From Chitinophaga polysaccharea (lineage in GTDB: Bacteria; Bacteroidota; Bacteroidia; Chitinophagales; Chitinophagaceae): a stretch of 64,000 nt of DNA. Under the pieces are notes generated by a model. That model was not told the origin of the DNA. It saw only the letters and a program-made list of their open reading frames with translations, and ran no database searches. This document shows positions 25,366 to 32,428 of this stretch, one piece after another. The position numbers and the translations under genes were made by a program. Where the stretch lies: contig NZ_VIWO01000002.1 in the NCBI RefSeq assembly GCF_007829335.1, positions 248,001-312,000 of the forward strand, in the 5' to 3' direction. Each line of letters opens with the position of its first letter. The stretch's first letter is position 1.

Positions 25366-28300
25366 ATGCGAATTGTCAGGAACGTAAAACTCTTTTTCCG
25401 GGAAGGAAACTCGGATAAGACCTATGAAATTGACCTTTGTGAAGTTGGCCCGGAACAATATATTGTTAACTTCAGATACGGAAAACGTGGTGGTGCCCTG
25501 AAAGACGGCACCAAAACCGTAAGCCCCGTAGCACTCGCCGCTGCCACTACCATCTTCGATGCGCTCGAAAAGGAAAAACGAAGCAAAGGTTATTTAGGAG
25601 AACAGGAAGCTGTTCAGGATTTGACATTTGTGCCAGTAGATACTACCCAGGTGACAGATGTAAAACACCGCGCTATATTAAGGCGATTGCAAGATGCCGT
25701 GGAAGGAAAATCCAGCTACAAAACTACCTGGAGTACTTCCCGCGTGATCTGGAGAGCGGGAGAGGAGAAAATAAAAGAAGCAGTACCCTACCTTATCAAA
25801 CTGGTAGAGAAAGGAGATGCCCGTCAACGTTATGCCGCTTTATGGTCGCTCGGCAAAACAGGCGACCCGGCTGCCGGCCCTGTATTGCGCTCCTATGCCG
25901 ACAATAGCTCCCGCCCGTTGAACATCCGTATGCTGGCGGCCAATGGTCTCCTGCTGGTATTGCCGGCAGAAGAACGGGCCGCGCATATACAAGCATATGT
26001 ACAACGGCTCCCACCTGCATTTCAAACGGCGGTGACCAATAATAATGGAGAAGAACTTTTCAACCTGCTTACCCAACAGGTAGTATCTCAGCAGCAGCTG
26101 AGTTACCCTATGCTGGAAGATCTTTTCGTGATCTCCTGGCAATACCCGGCGGTAAAACAGGTGCTGGTGACCCTCTTGTCGCGCATGCCTTTCCGGCCTT
26201 CTTTCTTCCAGCACGTCCGCCATATCTTCAAACAAGCGGAACTGAGGGATGAACATAATATCGTAGGCCTGCTGGCTACCCGCTTCGAAAGGGAAGCGCC
26301 TATGTTCAACAACCCGGGCAGCAGTACCGACTACGACGGAGAACCTTATATTCCTACCATCTATATCCCTGAGTTACAGGAATCGATGAAGGCAGATAAG
26401 GAACTGAAAAAGCCTACTTCCCGGTTGTCTTATTCCAACCGTACCCGTGCTTACCTGCATCGTCGCGTACTGCGCAACCTGCAAACATTGGGCGCCCGCG
26501 AAGATGTACAATATGTACGACTCGCCACCGCCTTATTGCTGCACTACGATGAAAGCAGGGACGCCACCAAAGAATACCAGGTACGCGATTATGCGTATAT
26601 CAATAACCGTTATACATCTATTTATATCCAGTATCCCGCCAACTCACGCGCGGTATACCTGAACTATATTACCCGCGGAAATGCCTCCAATCTCCGCCTG
26701 AAACCGGATAACAGGGAATGGGTATTCCAGGAACCGGGTAACGATGGGGCACAAAGTACTGCCAAACGTACATTGGATGCCAACCCCGATACCCTCAAAA
26801 ACGGGGATAAAGGTGGTTTGCTGAAAAAGCTGTTTGGTTGGCTGGGCGCCGAAAAACCATCTGTAACACCAGCGGTCCCCAAAGAATACCAGGCTACACC
26901 GCCGCCAGCACAGGCTATTGTAAGCGATGTACCTTACCTGCATCTCTGGCAACAACTGCCGCAGGCTTTTGTACAGCTGCTCATTTCCGGTCGCATGGAA
27001 GCCGTGCATATTTTTGCGATGGAGCAATTGAAAGCCCACCCCGAATATGAAAGCCTGAAAGCTAAGATGGATGAAGGCGTTATAGCCGGGCTGCTGGCCA
27101 ACGCGTTCAGTATTCCTACCATGTACGGATTGGAACTGGCCAAGGAGAGATATGATCCGGCCAACCCGTCGATACCACTCCTGTTCAGCCTGATCAAAAG
27201 CCCACTAGACCTGGCCCGGATACAAGGACTGCAATGGATCAGTGAAAACCAGGCGACCTGCTTTGGCAACCTCGACTTCCTCATGCACCTGTTATTCTCA
27301 CCCTATAAAGAGGTGCGTGATTTTGTACGTAAGCAATTAACACCGGAATACCTACCCGGCGACAATCCCCGTCTGTTATGCAATATGGCGATTGACGGCC
27401 TGCTGGCACTGCAGTCAGCTACTGCCGCCGGCAACGATAACCTCAACGATTCCTGCAGCATACTGGAGCAGGTTTGCCGTCAGGCACTCACGGCTACGGA
27501 TATAGTTATCATCGAGAAATTACTGGGTAGCCCGGTACTGGCTTGTCACGCGTTTGCCGCGCGCCTGCTGCTCCTGAAACAAGGACACTTTAATTATGCA
27601 GAAGTATCCGACGGCTTAATCCGTGAGCTGCTGGTAAATGCCTTCCAGCCCGTAAGAACAGCCGGAATCAGTATCCTACAGGCTCTCGGTATGACCGAAC
27701 TGTTGAAAAGACCCGAACTGGTACTATATATTATCACCAGTACGTACACGGATGTACGAAATGGCATACGCCCGCTGATCAGTCAGTTGGTGCAACAAGA
27801 CCCACGCATGGCCGTTTACCTGGTAAATGAATTGGTACCGCTGTTGATGCGCAAGGAAACCGCTGAGGGGACGCATGCAGATATTGCCGCCCTGCTCAGC
27901 CATGAGCTGGTGAACTATTTACAGGATGTAGATACCGCTACAGCCCTGCGCCTGCTGTATTCGAATTACCGGTCGGCACAGGAATTTGGTATCGTGGTAC
28001 TGGAAAAGTATATTCCTGCCGATGCGTTGACGCTGAAACAGGTCATTGCAGCCGGTAGCCATGAACTGTTGGCTGTACGCGAATGGTGTTGGCTGTTTTT
28101 TCACAGAAACGTGGCCCGTATCCGCTATGAAAGAGAAGCGGCCATGGGATTGCTGGATGCCAAATGGGAAGATACCCGCCAGATGGCCATGGAGTTTTTC
28201 CGTACCCAGTTTACCGACAAAGACTGGACGCCCGAAACCCTCGTATCGGTGGCCGACAGCGTAAGACCTGATATCCAGGCCTTTGGTAAAGAAATGCTGA

Positions 28301-28695
28301 TGCGCTTTTTCCGGGAGGAAGATGGCCCCACTTATCTACTGAAATTAAGCCAGCACCCAAGTGTAAGTATGCAGTTATTTGCTACCAACTACCTGCAAAG
28401 CTATGCCGCCAGTAACCTGGATTACCTGCAACAACTGGAACACTATTTCAGGGTGGTACTGAGCAGGGTCAACAAAGCCCGCGCCGCGAAGGAACGAATA
28501 TTTGCATTCCTGGAAGCCGAGGCGCTGAAGTCTGCCGAAGCTGCAGCATATATTGGTCATATCATTGCCCATATTTCCGCTACCGTGGCGATAGGCGATA
28601 AGGCCCGTTGTATCGATATCATGCGTAACATACAACAGCAATACCCGGTAGAATTGCCTATCCAGATTATGCCAACTGCTATCAGAGTATCTTAA
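25366..28695 (+). CDS. WGR-domain and HEAT/ARM-repeat protein, retron-associated
   Basis: 1109 residues. The first about 80 form a WGR domain (YEIDLCEVGPEQYIVNFRYG followed by KRGGALKDGTKT), a fold known from PARPs and MolR-like proteins that contacts nucleic acid ends. From about 120 onward come helical HEAT/ARM-like repeats (VPYLIKLVEKGDARQRYAAL; LLLKQGHFNYAEVSDGL; more up to about 1090), interrupted near 490-525 by a Pro/Ala-rich linker. No enzymatic motif was seen. It is 15 nt upstream of the SWIM protein gene and in the same direction as the RT. The set RT + ARM + winged-helix/SWIM is what I recall for type XIII retrons, so this is the likely ARM partner protein. Confidence 0.8.
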   Translation: MRIVRNVKLFFREGNSDKTYEIDLCEVGPEQYIVNFRYGKRGGALKDGTKTVSPVALAAATTIFDALEKEKRSKGYLGEQEAVQDLTFVPVDTTQVTDVKHRAILRRLQDAVEGKSSYKTTWSTSRVIWRAGEEKIKEAVPYLIKLVEKGDARQRYAALWSLGKTGDPAAGPVLRSYADNSSRPLNIRMLAANGLLLVLPAEERAAHIQAYVQRLPPAFQTAVTNNNGEELFNLLTQQVVSQQQLSYPMLEDLFVISWQYPAVKQVLVTLLSRMPFRPSFFQHVRHIFKQAELRDEHNIVGLLATRFEREAPMFNNPGSSTDYDGEPYIPTIYIPELQESMKADKELKKPTSRLSYSNRTRAYLHRRVLRNLQTLGAREDVQYVRLATALLLHYDESRDATKEYQVRDYAYINNRYTSIYIQYPANSRAVYLNYITRGNASNLRLKPDNREWVFQEPGNDGAQSTAKRTLDANPDTLKNGDKGGLLKKLFGWLGAEKPSVTPAVPKEYQATPPPAQAIVSDVPYLHLWQQLPQAFVQLLISGRMEAVHIFAMEQLKAHPEYESLKAKMDEGVIAGLLANAFSIPTMYGLELAKERYDPANPSIPLLFSLIKSPLDLARIQGLQWISENQATCFGNLDFLMHLLFSPYKEVRDFVRKQLTPEYLPGDNPRLLCNMAIDGLLALQSATAAGNDNLNDSCSILEQVCRQALTATDIVIIEKLLGSPVLACHAFAARLLLLKQGHFNYAEVSDGLIRELLVNAFQPVRTAGISILQALGMTELLKRPELVLYIITSTYTDVRNGIRPLISQLVQQDPRMAVYLVNELVPLLMRKETAEGTHADIAALLSHELVNYLQDVDTATALRLLYSNYRSAQEFGIVVLEKYIPADALTLKQVIAAGSHELLAVREWCWLFFHRNVARIRYEREAAMGLLDAKWEDTRQMAMEFFRTQFTDKDWTPETLVSVADSVRPDIQAFGKEMLMRFFREEDGPTYLLKLSQHPSVSMQLFATNYLQSYAASNLDYLQQLEHYFRVVLSRVNKARAAKERIFAFLEAEALKSAEAAAYIGHIIAHISATVAIGDKARCIDIMRNIQQQYPVELPIQIMPTAIRVS

Positions 28696-28710
28696 AAAAG
28701 TAATCCATTT

Positions 28711-30351
28711 ATGTTATTTAATTACAGATATAGTGGTAACTCGCAGGTGTACAGCAATGCCTCCTCTGCAGGCATTTCTTTTGCGCCGGATACCCGTCGT
28801 GACCCAACTTTCTTCGTGGGAAAGCTGCACAAAAAGATAGCTTTCCGCGAAGCCATATCCGCCCTGCATGATGTGGTGGTATCTGACTTGCGTTTTAAAC
28901 CCAAAGATAAAACTGCCTATAAAGAATGGGCCGCCCAGCAGGAGTCGCTCTGGCTGGCAGAATATATGAACGGCTTCGATACGAAAGCCGCCGATGACCG
29001 TATTGCCACGCTCAAAAATCAGCTGCACGATATTTCCGCTGAACGGGATCGCGTAATGGGCCCTTTCTATAAAGCCCGCAAAACTTACTTCGATTACCTA
29101 TATCAGAAGGACCGCGATGCCTGGTTTGTACTGGACCCTGTTATCAGTGTGCACCCGGATGAAATGTTCTTTGAATGTTTCAGCCAGGATGAATCGACCT
29201 ATGGGAAGTTAAGCGCCAACTACAATGTATTTAAAGAGGTGAACGAGTTTGAATGTGGCACCACCAACATCGATTACTCCGCAGCTTTGTATGATGAGTT
29301 TCAGAAGATACGCGATTATAAAGAAACAGATTTCAAAATTGATCCGGGAGGGTTCCAGGTGCAAACCTCCCAGGAAGAGCTTTACCATGAGGTGAAGATC
29401 GACCTGCCAGATAGCTGGGTGAGAGGATTTTTACAGGTGAGTTCAGCTATGACGTTGCCTGCGGCTACTTTTGACCTGCATCCAATGGATGTATATAACT
29501 TCTGTTCCTGGCTCCGCCGGTTTAAAGAAAAGAAAGGGCCCCGTTCCATTCGCTTTATACTGGAACCAGGTAAACCGGTAAGGGCCATTTTTGAGCCCTG
29601 GAACCAGGAAATCGTATGTGCGAGATCGTTATATACCGGTCCGCAATCCCGCGAAATCCGCATATGGGGGAGAAGACGCCTGCTGATACTGGAAAGGCTG
29701 ATTCCAATTGCCAAAAAGTTCACGGTGCATTTGACCGGCAACGGCTTACCATCTTTTTATATTGCTGACCTGGGAGATATGCAGTTTACGCTGGGACTGA
29801 GCGGATGGACTGCCAACGACTGGTCCCGCGCCGGTCAGTTTGACCTGATGGCGCCCAGGGCCATAGTCGATGACAGCGCCAAGCTAAAAGTATTTGCCGA
29901 CCTCAAAACCAGGTGGATGGCCAAGCCGGAAACCATTGCGCATGCAACCAGCCTGGATAAAGCCACGGTGCTGGGTGCGCTGGGTATCTATACCCAGGCG
30001 GGCAAAGTGATCTTTGATCTGCATACCGGCTTTTACCGCTTGCGGGAACTGAGCCGGGAGCCCTTGCCATTGGACGACTTGCGGTTTTCCAACCCCGAGG
30101 AAGCTGCCGGCAATAAACTGGTGCAGGAAAAACGGGTACAGTTTACCGAAAAAGATATCCCTGGAGTAGGGCTGCAATTAACGGGTACCGTGAAGGGATC
30201 ACATCGTGTATACCATCCCGTTATTACCATCGATGCAGATGAAAGATTGAGCAATGCGCATTGTGATTGCAACTTTTATGCAAGCAATAAATTATATAAA
30301 GGTCCCTGCGAACATATGCTGGGACTGCGTATCGCGCATGCGCAAAAATAA
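28711..30351 (+). CDS. Winged-helix/SWIM zinc-finger protein, retron-associated
   Basis: 546 residues. The C-terminus holds a SWIM zinc finger, C518-x-C520-x12-C533-x-H535 (CDCNF...GPCEH), which binds DNA or protein. A helical segment with coiled-coil character lies near 75-125 (AAQQESLWLAEYMNGFD). A winged-helix-like region may lie at about 395-460 (TSLDKATVLGALGIYTQAGK), just before the SWIM part. It follows the WGR/ARM gene by 15 nt and is therefore translated from the same message. After it comes the msr-msd-like RNA locus and the RT. Role in the retron (effector, msDNA binding or antitoxin) is not known from sequence. Confidence 0.78.
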   Translation: MLFNYRYSGNSQVYSNASSAGISFAPDTRRDPTFFVGKLHKKIAFREAISALHDVVVSDLRFKPKDKTAYKEWAAQQESLWLAEYMNGFDTKAADDRIATLKNQLHDISAERDRVMGPFYKARKTYFDYLYQKDRDAWFVLDPVISVHPDEMFFECFSQDESTYGKLSANYNVFKEVNEFECGTTNIDYSAALYDEFQKIRDYKETDFKIDPGGFQVQTSQEELYHEVKIDLPDSWVRGFLQVSSAMTLPAATFDLHPMDVYNFCSWLRRFKEKKGPRSIRFILEPGKPVRAIFEPWNQEIVCARSLYTGPQSREIRIWGRRRLLILERLIPIAKKFTVHLTGNGLPSFYIADLGDMQFTLGLSGWTANDWSRAGQFDLMAPRAIVDDSAKLKVFADLKTRWMAKPETIAHATSLDKATVLGALGIYTQAGKVIFDLHTGFYRLRELSREPLPLDDLRFSNPEEAAGNKLVQEKRVQFTEKDIPGVGLQLTGTVKGSHRVYHPVITIDADERLSNAHCDCNFYASNKLYKGPCEHMLGLRIAHAQK

Positions 30352-30420
30352 AAACAGGAAAAAAGTAAGAGAAGATTTTTTGTTTTCCGGAATAATTTTC
30401 TAACTTGCTGACTCATTAAT

Positions 30421-30673
30421 AACAAAGATCTTTGTAAAGAGGAATTGATTGCACTTGCGCCCGAAAAGGGACGAATGATGTTTCGTCATTCAGGTATTTT
30501 GACTATACATGCTTCACTAAATGCAATCTTTACTTTGGGAGGGGCCTACCATACGCATATTTCCGGTAGAAGCCCCAGGGGCTGAAATATACGTATGGTA
30601 GGCCCCTCCCTTGAGTTGATTGATTTAGTCAATGGCTTGCACGAAGGCCTCTTCCTCTTTACAAAATTTTGTT
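30421..30673 (+). ncRNA. Candidate retron msr-msd RNA
   Basis: The 469-nt gap between the SWIM gene and the RT gene has every landmark of a retron template RNA. The a1 arm TTTGTAAAGAGGAA (30431-30444) is perfectly complementary to the a2 arm TTCCTCTTTACAAA (30652-30665). The outer AACAAA (30421-30426) pairs again with TTTGTT (30668-30673). Just after a1 lie TTGATTGC, with candidate branching G at 30447 or 30451, and msr hairpins CCC-GAAAA-GGG (30460-30470) and GACGAA/TTCGTC (30470-30475, 30482-30487). The msd part contains the long hairpin at 30537-30610. Borders of msr and msd are estimates. The RT start follows a2 by about 150 nt. Confidence 0.82.
30537..30610 (+). repeat. Long msd hairpin of the retron RNA
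   Basis: GGGAGGGGCCTACCATACG (30537-30555) is perfectly complementary to 30592-30610. After one C/A mismatch the stem continues with ATATTTC (30557-30563) pairing GAAATAT (30584-30590). The tip folds AGCCC/GGGCT (71-75 with 79-83 of 305xx). About 26 paired bases in total, as in msDNA stems. Confidence 0.85.
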
Positions 30674-30820
30674 ACTCCCCGTCAGCAAGGCACTACAGCC
30701 GGTATATCTTCTCTTCATTTTCCCTGTCTTACAACTATTTTTTATTTAGTCTGAAAGTAATGTCGTTGCCTGAAACAGCATTGCTGTATATGAAAATGAA
30801 TAAATACTCAACTATTTATC

Positions 30821-32428
30821 ATGGCCGAAAGCTTAACCCGTCAACAGCTGTACGATAGAATACGTGCATCCTCTAAAGAGGAATTTATACTGGAAGAAAT
30901 GATTCGCCTGGGTTTCTGGGCAAGAAATACTGCACAGCCGTCTCCCTCTGAAACGCTTATCCGCAGGGAGGGAGAGCTGCGCCGTGAACTGAATGACCTG
31001 CTGGCAGAAAAGCAACGTTATCAAAATAAAGTCAAAATGTTGGCTGACATGCGAAAAGATCGCATGGCCAAATCAAAACTGAAAATTGCAGAAACTAAAA
31101 AGCGCCGCGAGGAAGAAAGGAAAGCGAGGGCGGAAGCATGGGCTGTGGCTAAGGACCAGCAGATCCTTTACCTGGGTGAAGAAGTATCTGCGGGCCTGAA
31201 CAAGGTGAATCCCGACACAGCGCAACTGGCAAAGTTCAATCTGCCGGTGTTTGCCGATGCTACTGCGTTGGCAAACGCCATGGGCATTACGTTGGGTAAA
31301 CTTCGCTACCTGGCGTTCAATCGGAAAGTGGGGCATCATACTCATTACCAGCGTTTCCAGGTGCCTAAAAAATCCGGCGGTACCCGCGTGATTTCTGCAC
31401 CGATGCCCCAGCTGAAAGCTGCACAGCACTGGATCCTAGAGCATATACTGTATAAAGTCAGCCACAGCAACGCCGCGCATGGTTTTGTGCCGGGAAAATC
31501 GATCGTTACCAACGCGGCGCCGCATGTAGGCCAGGATATTGTGATCAATATTGACCTCCGCGATTTCTTCCCGTCCATCGCCTATAAAAGAGTGAAAGGA
31601 TTATTCTGCAAATTGGGATATGCCGAACAGGTAGCTACCATCCTGGCCCTTATTTGTACGGAACCGGAAGTAGATGAAGTGTTGCTCGATGGCCGCAAAT
31701 ATTATGTAGCTAAAACGGCCCGCCATCTCCCGCAGGGTGCTCCTACCAGCCCCGCACTTACCAACCTGATTTGCTTTAAGCTGGACCGGCGTTTTGCCGG
31801 TCTCGCAGAAAAATACGGTTACGCCTATACGCGGTATGCGGATGACATGACGTTTTCTGCGAAAGGAGCGGCGGCCGACAAAGCCGGACAACTCCTGCGT
31901 GCCGTGAAAATGTTTGTGAAAGAAGAGGGTTTCACCATTCACCCCGACAAGCTCCAGGTCATGCGTAAAGGTGACCGCCATACGGTAACCGGCATCGTGG
32001 TAAATGAGAAGCTGAGTATAGACCGTACTACCTTACGTAAGTTCCGCGCCTTGTTACACAACATTGAGAAAACCGGTTTGTCTGGTAAAAGATGGGGCAA
32101 AGGAAAGAATATTATCAGCAGCATAGAAGGCTATGCAAACTTTGTATACATGGTGAAACCTGAATGGGGCGCCAGGTTGAAAGAGAAGCTGGCAGCGCTG
32201 TTACAGCGACCAGATATCAAGGCAGAAGCGCATGCCATCTGGACAGGCAACAGCTCACAACCTGTTACAACAGAAGCGATATCTGCGTCTTCGCATCCTG
32301 CCGGATATACCAGTTCTGACACTACTACGCCGGCTGCTACTACCGATAGTTCCACCACTATACCAGGAAGGATAACGCCGCCGGAACCGCCTGCTGCCAC
32401 AGATAAGCCCTGGTGGGATGTGGTATAA
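30821..32428 (+). CDS. Retron-type reverse transcriptase (type XIII-like)
   Basis: 535 residues. RT core about 170-460: INIDLRDFFPSI with catalytic D245, LPQGAPTSP (303-311), YADD (339-342) in TRYADDMTFS, plus the retron signatures NAxxH (N231-A-A-P-H235) and VTG (389-391). An N-terminal extension of about 165 residues includes a charged coiled coil (about 45-110). The C-terminal about 60 residues are Ser/Thr/Pro-rich and end in PWWDVV, which is unusual. The enzyme would prime from a 2'-OH of the upstream RNA and copy the msd into msDNA. It is downstream of the msr-msd locus and the WGR/ARM and SWIM genes, and a terminator follows. The most probable job is phage defence. Confidence 0.93.
   Translation: MAESLTRQQLYDRIRASSKEEFILEEMIRLGFWARNTAQPSPSETLIRREGELRRELNDLLAEKQRYQNKVKMLADMRKDRMAKSKLKIAETKKRREEERKARAEAWAVAKDQQILYLGEEVSAGLNKVNPDTAQLAKFNLPVFADATALANAMGITLGKLRYLAFNRKVGHHTHYQRFQVPKKSGGTRVISAPMPQLKAAQHWILEHILYKVSHSNAAHGFVPGKSIVTNAAPHVGQDIVINIDLRDFFPSIAYKRVKGLFCKLGYAEQVATILALICTEPEVDEVLLDGRKYYVAKTARHLPQGAPTSPALTNLICFKLDRRFAGLAEKYGYAYTRYADDMTFSAKGAAADKAGQLLRAVKMFVKEEGFTIHPDKLQVMRKGDRHTVTGIVVNEKLSIDRTTLRKFRALLHNIEKTGLSGKRWGKGKNIISSIEGYANFVYMVKPEWGARLKEKLAALLQRPDIKAEAHAIWTGNSSQPVTTEAISASSHPAGYTSSDTTTPAATTDSSTTIPGRITPPEPPAATDKPWWDVV

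Follow-up and report, generated by a model that had tools for sequence, protein, structure and literature searches.

The question raised by a small gene cluster in the genome of Chitinophaga polysaccharea is whether it constitutes a complete retron and, if so, how such a system might act. The cluster occupies positions 25,366 to 32,428 of a 64,000-nucleotide (nt) stretch of assembly GCF_007829335.1 (contig NZ_VIWO01000002.1, positions 248,001 to 312,000), referred to here as the window; all features described below lie on its + strand. Three co-oriented genes are present, encoding a WGR-HEAT protein (25366..28695, 1109 residues), a SWIM protein (28711..30351, 546 residues) and a retron reverse transcriptase (RT; 30821..32428, 535 residues), with 15 nt between the first two and 469 nt between the SWIM and RT genes. 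An initial annotation had described a WGR plus HEAT/ARM gene and a SWIM gene in the same orientation as the RT and had assigned the set (RT + ARM + WHSWIM) to type XIII, a type reportedly named in the retron classification of Mestre et al. 2020. Open reading frames and domain matches agree with this description, and the best PADLOC models of the three genes carry the same type label (WGR_XIII, 1156.7 bits; SWIM_XIII, 801 bits; RT_XIII, 635.8 bits). Judging from the model names, we take the PADLOC rule for type XIII to be RT_XIII and SWIM_XIII together with WGR_XIII or HEAT-ARM_XIII. The locus is thus almost certainly a complete and intact type XIII retron of Chitinophaga, and every part of the original observation exceeds chance. 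It is an ordinary member of its type; the interest lies in the properties of the family, namely a predicted sliding clamp at the heart of a retron, an RNA that is conserved and at some loci arranged in arrays, the existence of a split form, and RT tails that are probably directed to the membrane.

For comparison, the best 80 of 476 RT relatives were used as loci, among which the nearest named relative of the window RT is that of Chitinophaga eiseniae Ak56 (98% identical). Including the window, the protein sets comprised 79 RT, 66 SWIM and 63 WGR sequences, a few of them contig-edge fragments; proteins whose start was not found were left out (RT of L031 and L056, SWIM of L044, WGR of L056 and L065). 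A SWIM gene is found near the RT in 66 of the 80 loci and a WGR gene in 64, with several others cut by contig ends. The gene order is WGR-SWIM-RT in most loci and RT-WGR-SWIM in Flavobacterium (L032-L036, L058). Across the 63 sources with all three proteins, their pairwise distances correlate at r 0.955-0.975, with mean distances of 0.636 for WGR, 0.453 for RT and 0.386 for SWIM. Among 119 sampled genomes of the order, a strong SWIM match occurs in five, all of which also have a strong RT_XIII match, and RT_XIII exceeds 500 bits in six; the one without SWIM (G207) has its RT 345 bases from a contig start. Judged from these sequences, the three proteins travel together; the initial annotation had named a lack of conserved neighbours as evidence that would count against its assignment, and the partners are in fact kept across phyla. 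In a control genome, that of Methanosarcina acetivorans, SWIM_XIII and WGR_XIII find matches at E 1e-3 and RT_XIII at 1e-40, with none for SWIM or RT at 1e-60, suggesting a possible distant archaeal relative.

The gap between the SWIM and RT genes, for which a structured RNA had been asserted, does contain a genuine msr-msd RNA, with an a1/a2 repeat and msr and msd hairpins. On the basis of fold, repeat and covariation, this non-coding RNA extends from a1 to a2 (30431..30665), with a family profile match at 30449-30646. The a1 repeat (30431..30444) is a perfect 14-nt complement of a2 (30652..30665), and relatives show compensations in this helix from G-C to A-U and from A-U to G-C. Shortly 3' of a1 lies the motif UUGCA (30449..30453), whose last four letters, UGCA, are unchanged in all 41 copies aligned across phyla; the G among them (30451) is a candidate for priming. 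The msr hairpin GAATGAT-GTTTC-GTCATTC (30473..30491) corresponds to helix 1 of the cross-phylum alignment, where 5 of its 8 pairs change on both sides and 99.7% of cells are paired. The msd, provisionally placed at 30513..30632, is predicted to consist of a conserved basal stem and a variable apical stem, the latter forming a hairpin (30537..30610) with 27-nt arms (30537-30563 and 30584-30610) that are 96% complementary and a core that varies by compensatory change. The folding energy of 30420-30680 is -113.6 kcal/mol, against a shuffle mean of -63.3 (z -11.8), and none of 200 shuffles was as stable.

Rfam returned no match for this RNA at gathering thresholds. Within Chitinophaga and its family, 27 RNA sequences (24 distinct) share a mean column identity of 88%, and RNAalifold predicts 83 pairs; compensatory changes affect 20 of these, which lie for the most part in the core of the apical msd hairpin. 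A sequence profile from 29 unique seeds, which are themselves included among its matches, detected 82 copies in 71 of 81 sources (the 80 loci and the window; L001, a duplicate of the window, was left out of this search), in records of Bacteroidota, Planctomycetes, Acidobacteria, Proteobacteria and cyanobacteria. The ten sources in which this profile had no match are L031, which is cut at a contig start, and nine cyanobacterial loci. Flanking helices of at least 10 pairs were found in 73 of the 82 copies, compared with 28 of 410 shuffles. The cross-phylum alignment (A4) combined 37 of the 82 profile copies with 4 of the 10 copies found behind cyanobacterial SWIM genes, omitting, for instance, those of Flavobacterium as well as L025, L027 and L039. 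Standard pairs fill 89.8% of its cells (67.5% for shuffles, 32-46% for a slid structure), percentages that lean to well-aligned copies since these were chosen by hand, and the structure was derived from the same alignment that scored its pairing. Changes on both sides occur in 35 of 46 pairs (shuffle average 31.2) and in 488 cells versus 179, and the count of further pair types in this alignment is not above that of shuffles.

The RT itself carries the motifs at the places first reported, with NAAPH (the NAxxH motif) at residues 231-235, YADD from 339 and VTG from 389; NAxxH and VTG are hallmarks of retron RTs. Pfam RVT_1 matches the protein, and within NCBIfam the retron models (220-241 bits) outscore both the group II intron RT model (64.7 bits) and Drt2 (46.5 bits), so that the group II placement regarded at the outset as a possible refutation did not appear. 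A group II intron RT was accordingly rejected, its score being far from the model cut-off of 300 bits. A model for diversity-generating retroelements was absent among the seven NCBIfam matches of the RT, in the course of which no search aimed at RTs of that kind was made. In the 7.6-Mb genome, the window RT is the sole match to itself (E up to 0.001).

The most conserved protein of the set, the SWIM protein, is predicted to have for the most part a sliding-clamp-like fold, which goes beyond the initial annotation. Its CxC-x12-CxH finger (30262..30315, residues 518-535), already recognised there, is borne out as C518-x-C520-x12-C533-x-H535, four residues that are invariant in 40 aligned proteins (40 of the 66 in the set, also used for the folding alignment). 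The Pfam SWIM model scores 16.9 bits on the window protein, under its cut-off of 19.6, and matches 39 of the 40 aligned proteins, the window's included, at E up to 10. In the AlphaFold model (mean predicted local distance difference test, pLDDT, 78.8; predicted template modelling score, pTM, 0.74), Foldseek and VIA-align match residues 34-373 (28810..29829) to the PCNA-like two-domain clamp fold at 6-13% identity, with a helical insertion at about residues 62-135; a winged-helix-like part and the finger complete the protein. Conserved basic positions make up 8 of 50 in the putative channel helices versus 7 of 216 elsewhere (p 0.002, with helices assigned without coordinates). An ordinary DnaN is also encoded in the genome (G000:C1:851667-852020). 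A search with the SWIM protein returned at least 5,300 relatives, and the named ones among 120 listed are SWIM zinc finger or hypothetical proteins.

The WGR-HEAT protein combines an N-terminal WGR domain, a HEAT alpha-solenoid and a non-HEAT stretch at about residues 310-525. Pfam HEAT_2 scores above its cut-off, and WGR lies just under it (20.9 bits, cut-off 22.0). The AlphaFold model (pLDDT 86.6, pTM 0.66; folding alignment of 36 of the 63 proteins) yields Foldseek and VIA matches that are, among those listed, alpha-solenoids, some being solenoid parts of large kinases; such matches say little about function. As a separate observation, a Calothrix genome contains two WGR-type genes in tandem, of which the second (G083:C1:1854163-1857813) is matched in two overlapping pieces.

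A split form occurs in cyanobacteria. A sample of 13 genomes chosen by their RT, 12 cyanobacteria and one planctomycete, contains one RT_XIII each, WGR in all 13 and SWIM in 12, being missing in the planctomycete (G091). In seven of the 12 cyanobacteria (L054, L057, L059, L060, L063, L067, L081), no SWIM gene lies within the stretch covered to either side of the RT (8 kb at most each way); in a nearly complete Calothrix genome, SWIM and RT are 1.19 Mb apart on the same contig. SWIM and RT share a contig in L040, L050 and L053, and the contigs of L066 and L076 are too short to tell. The RNA was found 28-395 nt 3' of SWIM in 10 of the 12 cyanobacterial SWIM loci, including all seven split ones; behind SWIM in L090 and L091 no copy was found, and the genome of L091 has one on its RT contig (L053). 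Because the RNA of the split form adjoins the distant SWIM gene, an RT working in trans would be required. The planctomycete locus (L046, a Planctomycetaceae metagenome-assembled genome) has an RT and an RNA copy, with WGR on another contig and SWIM not found in the genome, which could reflect assembly loss or a reduced form. In addition, an RNase III-like gene is present upstream of the RT in eight cyanobacterial loci (L040, L050, L053, L054, L055, L062, L075 and L081, the last with two copies), accompanied in six of them by an NYN-domain-like gene, both names having been assigned by reading the sequence; the RNase III-like protein may process the retron RNA.

Multiple RNA copies occur at seven loci: L025 (3), L026 (2), L037 (4), L039 (2), L043 (2), L044 (3) and L052 (2). 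Copies within an array mostly differ most in their middle part, which contains the apical stem. For example, the two L052 copies differ at 3 of 75 positions in the 5' part, 0 of 38 in the 3' part and 14 of 71 in the middle, and L044.1 and L044.2 at 2 of 75, 2 of 38 and 43 of 90, respectively; this bias is weak or absent in L026, L039 and one L025 pair. Among 351 pairs of single-copy Chitinophaga loci, the RNA outside the apical hairpin has a mean distance of 0.08, is below four-fold degenerate codon sites in 351 of 351 pairs and differs, by bin, 6- to 60-fold less than those sites. The msd core has a mean distance of 0.41 versus 0.58 at four-fold sites, and is read as constrained mainly in pairing. 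A fast-evolving or spacer-like core was rejected for now on account of this lower mean, and the window's 21-nt stem arm had no exact match in viral contigs. Since the core exceeds four-fold sites in 66 of 351 pairs, most strongly in L018/L019 (0.50 vs 0.27), bursts of change may nevertheless occur.

How these parts might work together can be proposed only tentatively. The most likely mechanism, still a doubtful one, is that the RT and its multicopy single-stranded DNA (msDNA) restrain a DNA-clamping module. The initial annotation had suggested that the WGR and SWIM parts may bind msDNA or its RNA-DNA junction in a sensor complex, with the ARM protein as scaffold or effector. In the mechanism proposed here, the RT would convert the msr-msd RNA into msDNA, which would remain complexed with two proteins that handle DNA without catalysing a reaction, namely the PCNA-like clamp with its winged helix and SWIM finger and the WGR-HEAT protein; the RT tail would anchor this assembly at the membrane or on a partner. 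At rest, the clamp module would be occupied by the RNA/DNA hybrid. Removal or remodelling of msDNA by a phage factor would release the clamp and the WGR-HEAT protein, which would close on DNA, WGR at ends and the clamp as a ring round the duplex, and block replication in defence against the phage, following the logic of other retrons whose RT-msDNA holds back an effector. A wider reading falls a little short of an even chance: that type XIII is built round a PCNA-like clamp, with msDNA, whose RNA-DNA junction resembles a primer-template, checking the clamp/WGR-HEAT module, a tether in the RT tail, action in trans on an RNA more than 1 Mb away, and msDNA arrays with differing apical stems.

Several observations weigh against this proposal. 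The SWIM protein model includes stretches with pLDDT below 50; no clamp family was present among the 25 listed of 36 Pfam families matched by the 40 SWIM proteins; a PDB sequence search gave a best E of 0.28, to a protein that is not a clamp; and hhalign against DnaN proteins obtained from 27 of 29 DnaN loci gave probabilities of 0.2-0.3%, not above the WGR control. Distant clamps commonly resemble each other in sequence profile, but need not do so. The missing profile match to PCNA or DnaN weakens a claim of common descent and leaves the claim of a shared fold unaffected, and a shared clamp fold in itself shows no function. Moreover, a toxic enzyme was not recognised among the partner proteins, the RT being the sole recognised enzyme of the locus. 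The locus also occupies the same chromosomal site, between ychF and a TonB receptor-metX-OsmC-metZ block, in 17 of the 26 loci from Chitinophagaceae; in the remaining nine (L017-L023, L030, L038) none of ychF, TonB, metX, OsmC and metZ lies within the stretch covered, and L022 is on a short contig. A SWIM gene of full length was found in 1 of 72,556 records of plasmids (a Methylobacterium replicon of 2.8 Mb, plus one weak match elsewhere) and in none of 50,697 phage records, and 28 stretches of viral contigs fit the SWIM pattern with none confirmed. As a control, weak similarity to the RT occurs in 505 plasmid and 58 phage records, with at least 80% coverage in 1 and 0, a contrast limited by the bias of these collections away from type XIII hosts. 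A stable site together with near-absence from plasmids and phages is unlike typical mobile defence.

These same data suit an alternative that we consider unlikely, though the least unlikely of those weighed: a vertically inherited cellular device, rather than abortive infection, in which msDNA made in small amounts would guide DNA repair or the signalling of replication stress, or act there as a substrate for clamp loading. Its logic would be comparable to that of the 9-1-1 checkpoint clamp, which is PCNA-like, and the constraint on the RNA outside the apical hairpin in every pair compared would fit such a role. Of 79 genomes in the genus, 44 contain full-length SWIM, which favours vertical inheritance, yet the other 35 lack it, so that the device would be dispensable, and the few strong SWIM matches elsewhere in the order indicate a patchy distribution. 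The WGR-HEAT protein also diverges fastest (mean distance 0.64 vs 0.39 for SWIM), as could be expected of a part facing a changing partner.

A membrane-posted sensor of incoming linear DNA is quite unlikely. Here the RT tail would sit at the inner membrane, WGR would recognise DNA ends, as it does in PARPs, the clamp would secure them, and the phage genome would be stopped on entry, with msDNA and its RNA-DNA junction as the resting ligand. Besides the WGR domain and clamp-like fold, the tails offer some support. The window RT ends in a P/S/T-rich linker closing with KPWWDVV (32204..32425), and a comparison of 79 RTs gave 41 WW-type ends (window included), 11 hydrophobic transmembrane-like tails, all in proteobacterial records (hydropathy window 19, threshold 1.6), 21 RTs without a tail (20 cyanobacterial and L022) and 6 others. 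Membrane tethering by the tail is probable, with docking on a protein partner as the alternative; the tail-less RTs speak against a membrane post, and WW ends may bind protein rather than membrane. Finally, it is very unlikely that the clamp is only a scaffold and that the toxic activity belongs to an enzyme that escaped recognition, located for instance in the SWIM helical insertion or in the non-HEAT stretch of the WGR protein, which contains strands and is barely covered by fold matches (mostly spanning 567-1104). Against it stand the findings that the WGR and SWIM window proteins matched no enzyme family of Pfam or NCBIfam, that the listed WGR fold matches are solenoids, and that the 20 residues invariant in 36 aligned WGR proteins form no evident catalytic cluster, such clusters not having been tested in detail.

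A replication-clamp fold in so central a position would, to our knowledge, be without precedent among retrons. No mechanism for type XIII retrons was found in the literature searched, nor any description of the clamp fold, the RNA family with its arrays, the split form or the RT tails, of which a prior description elsewhere is possible. The only mention of a type XIII retron found there, in PMC11953036, is among the PADLOC matches of a Variovorax strain, and a term search of the main text of PMC12548924 and PMC13405049 gave no match. The predicted clamp fold, lying in the most conserved type XIII protein, would therefore provide a concrete mechanism to test, through DNA binding, ring formation and msDNA holding. 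Likewise, the cross-phylum RNA model allows msDNA to be predicted in many hosts, and the split form of cyanobacteria represents a natural test of a retron RT acting in trans.

Compared with known systems, the window locus shows no gene-level difference from type XIII retrons, which have the same three protein families in one cluster and the msr-msd RNA between SWIM and RT. With the PCNA/beta-clamp superfamily, the SWIM protein shares the predicted two-domain fold over residues 34-365, but differs in its low identity (6-13%), the lack of a profile match, the helical insertion in the first domain, and the added winged-helix-like part and SWIM finger. Pairs of a SWIM protein with a DUF6493-DUF7824-DUF7825 protein, were found at three loci of the same genus (L082, L083, L084). 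Their SWIM member is a distant relative, homologous over residues 137-540 at 23-24% identity; its partner, of about 950 residues, belongs to other Pfam families than WGR-HEAT. RT and retron RNA were not detected at the three loci, and the pair may be a comparable module of two proteins that lacks an RT. Retron-Eco8 consists of an RT, msDNA and an OLD nuclease, and its RT-msDNA controls the partner protein (PMC13158370). Whereas Retron-Eco8 has a nuclease effector and the type XIII locus no recognised enzyme besides the RT, control of a partner by RT-msDNA is the logic assumed for the type XIII locus as well.

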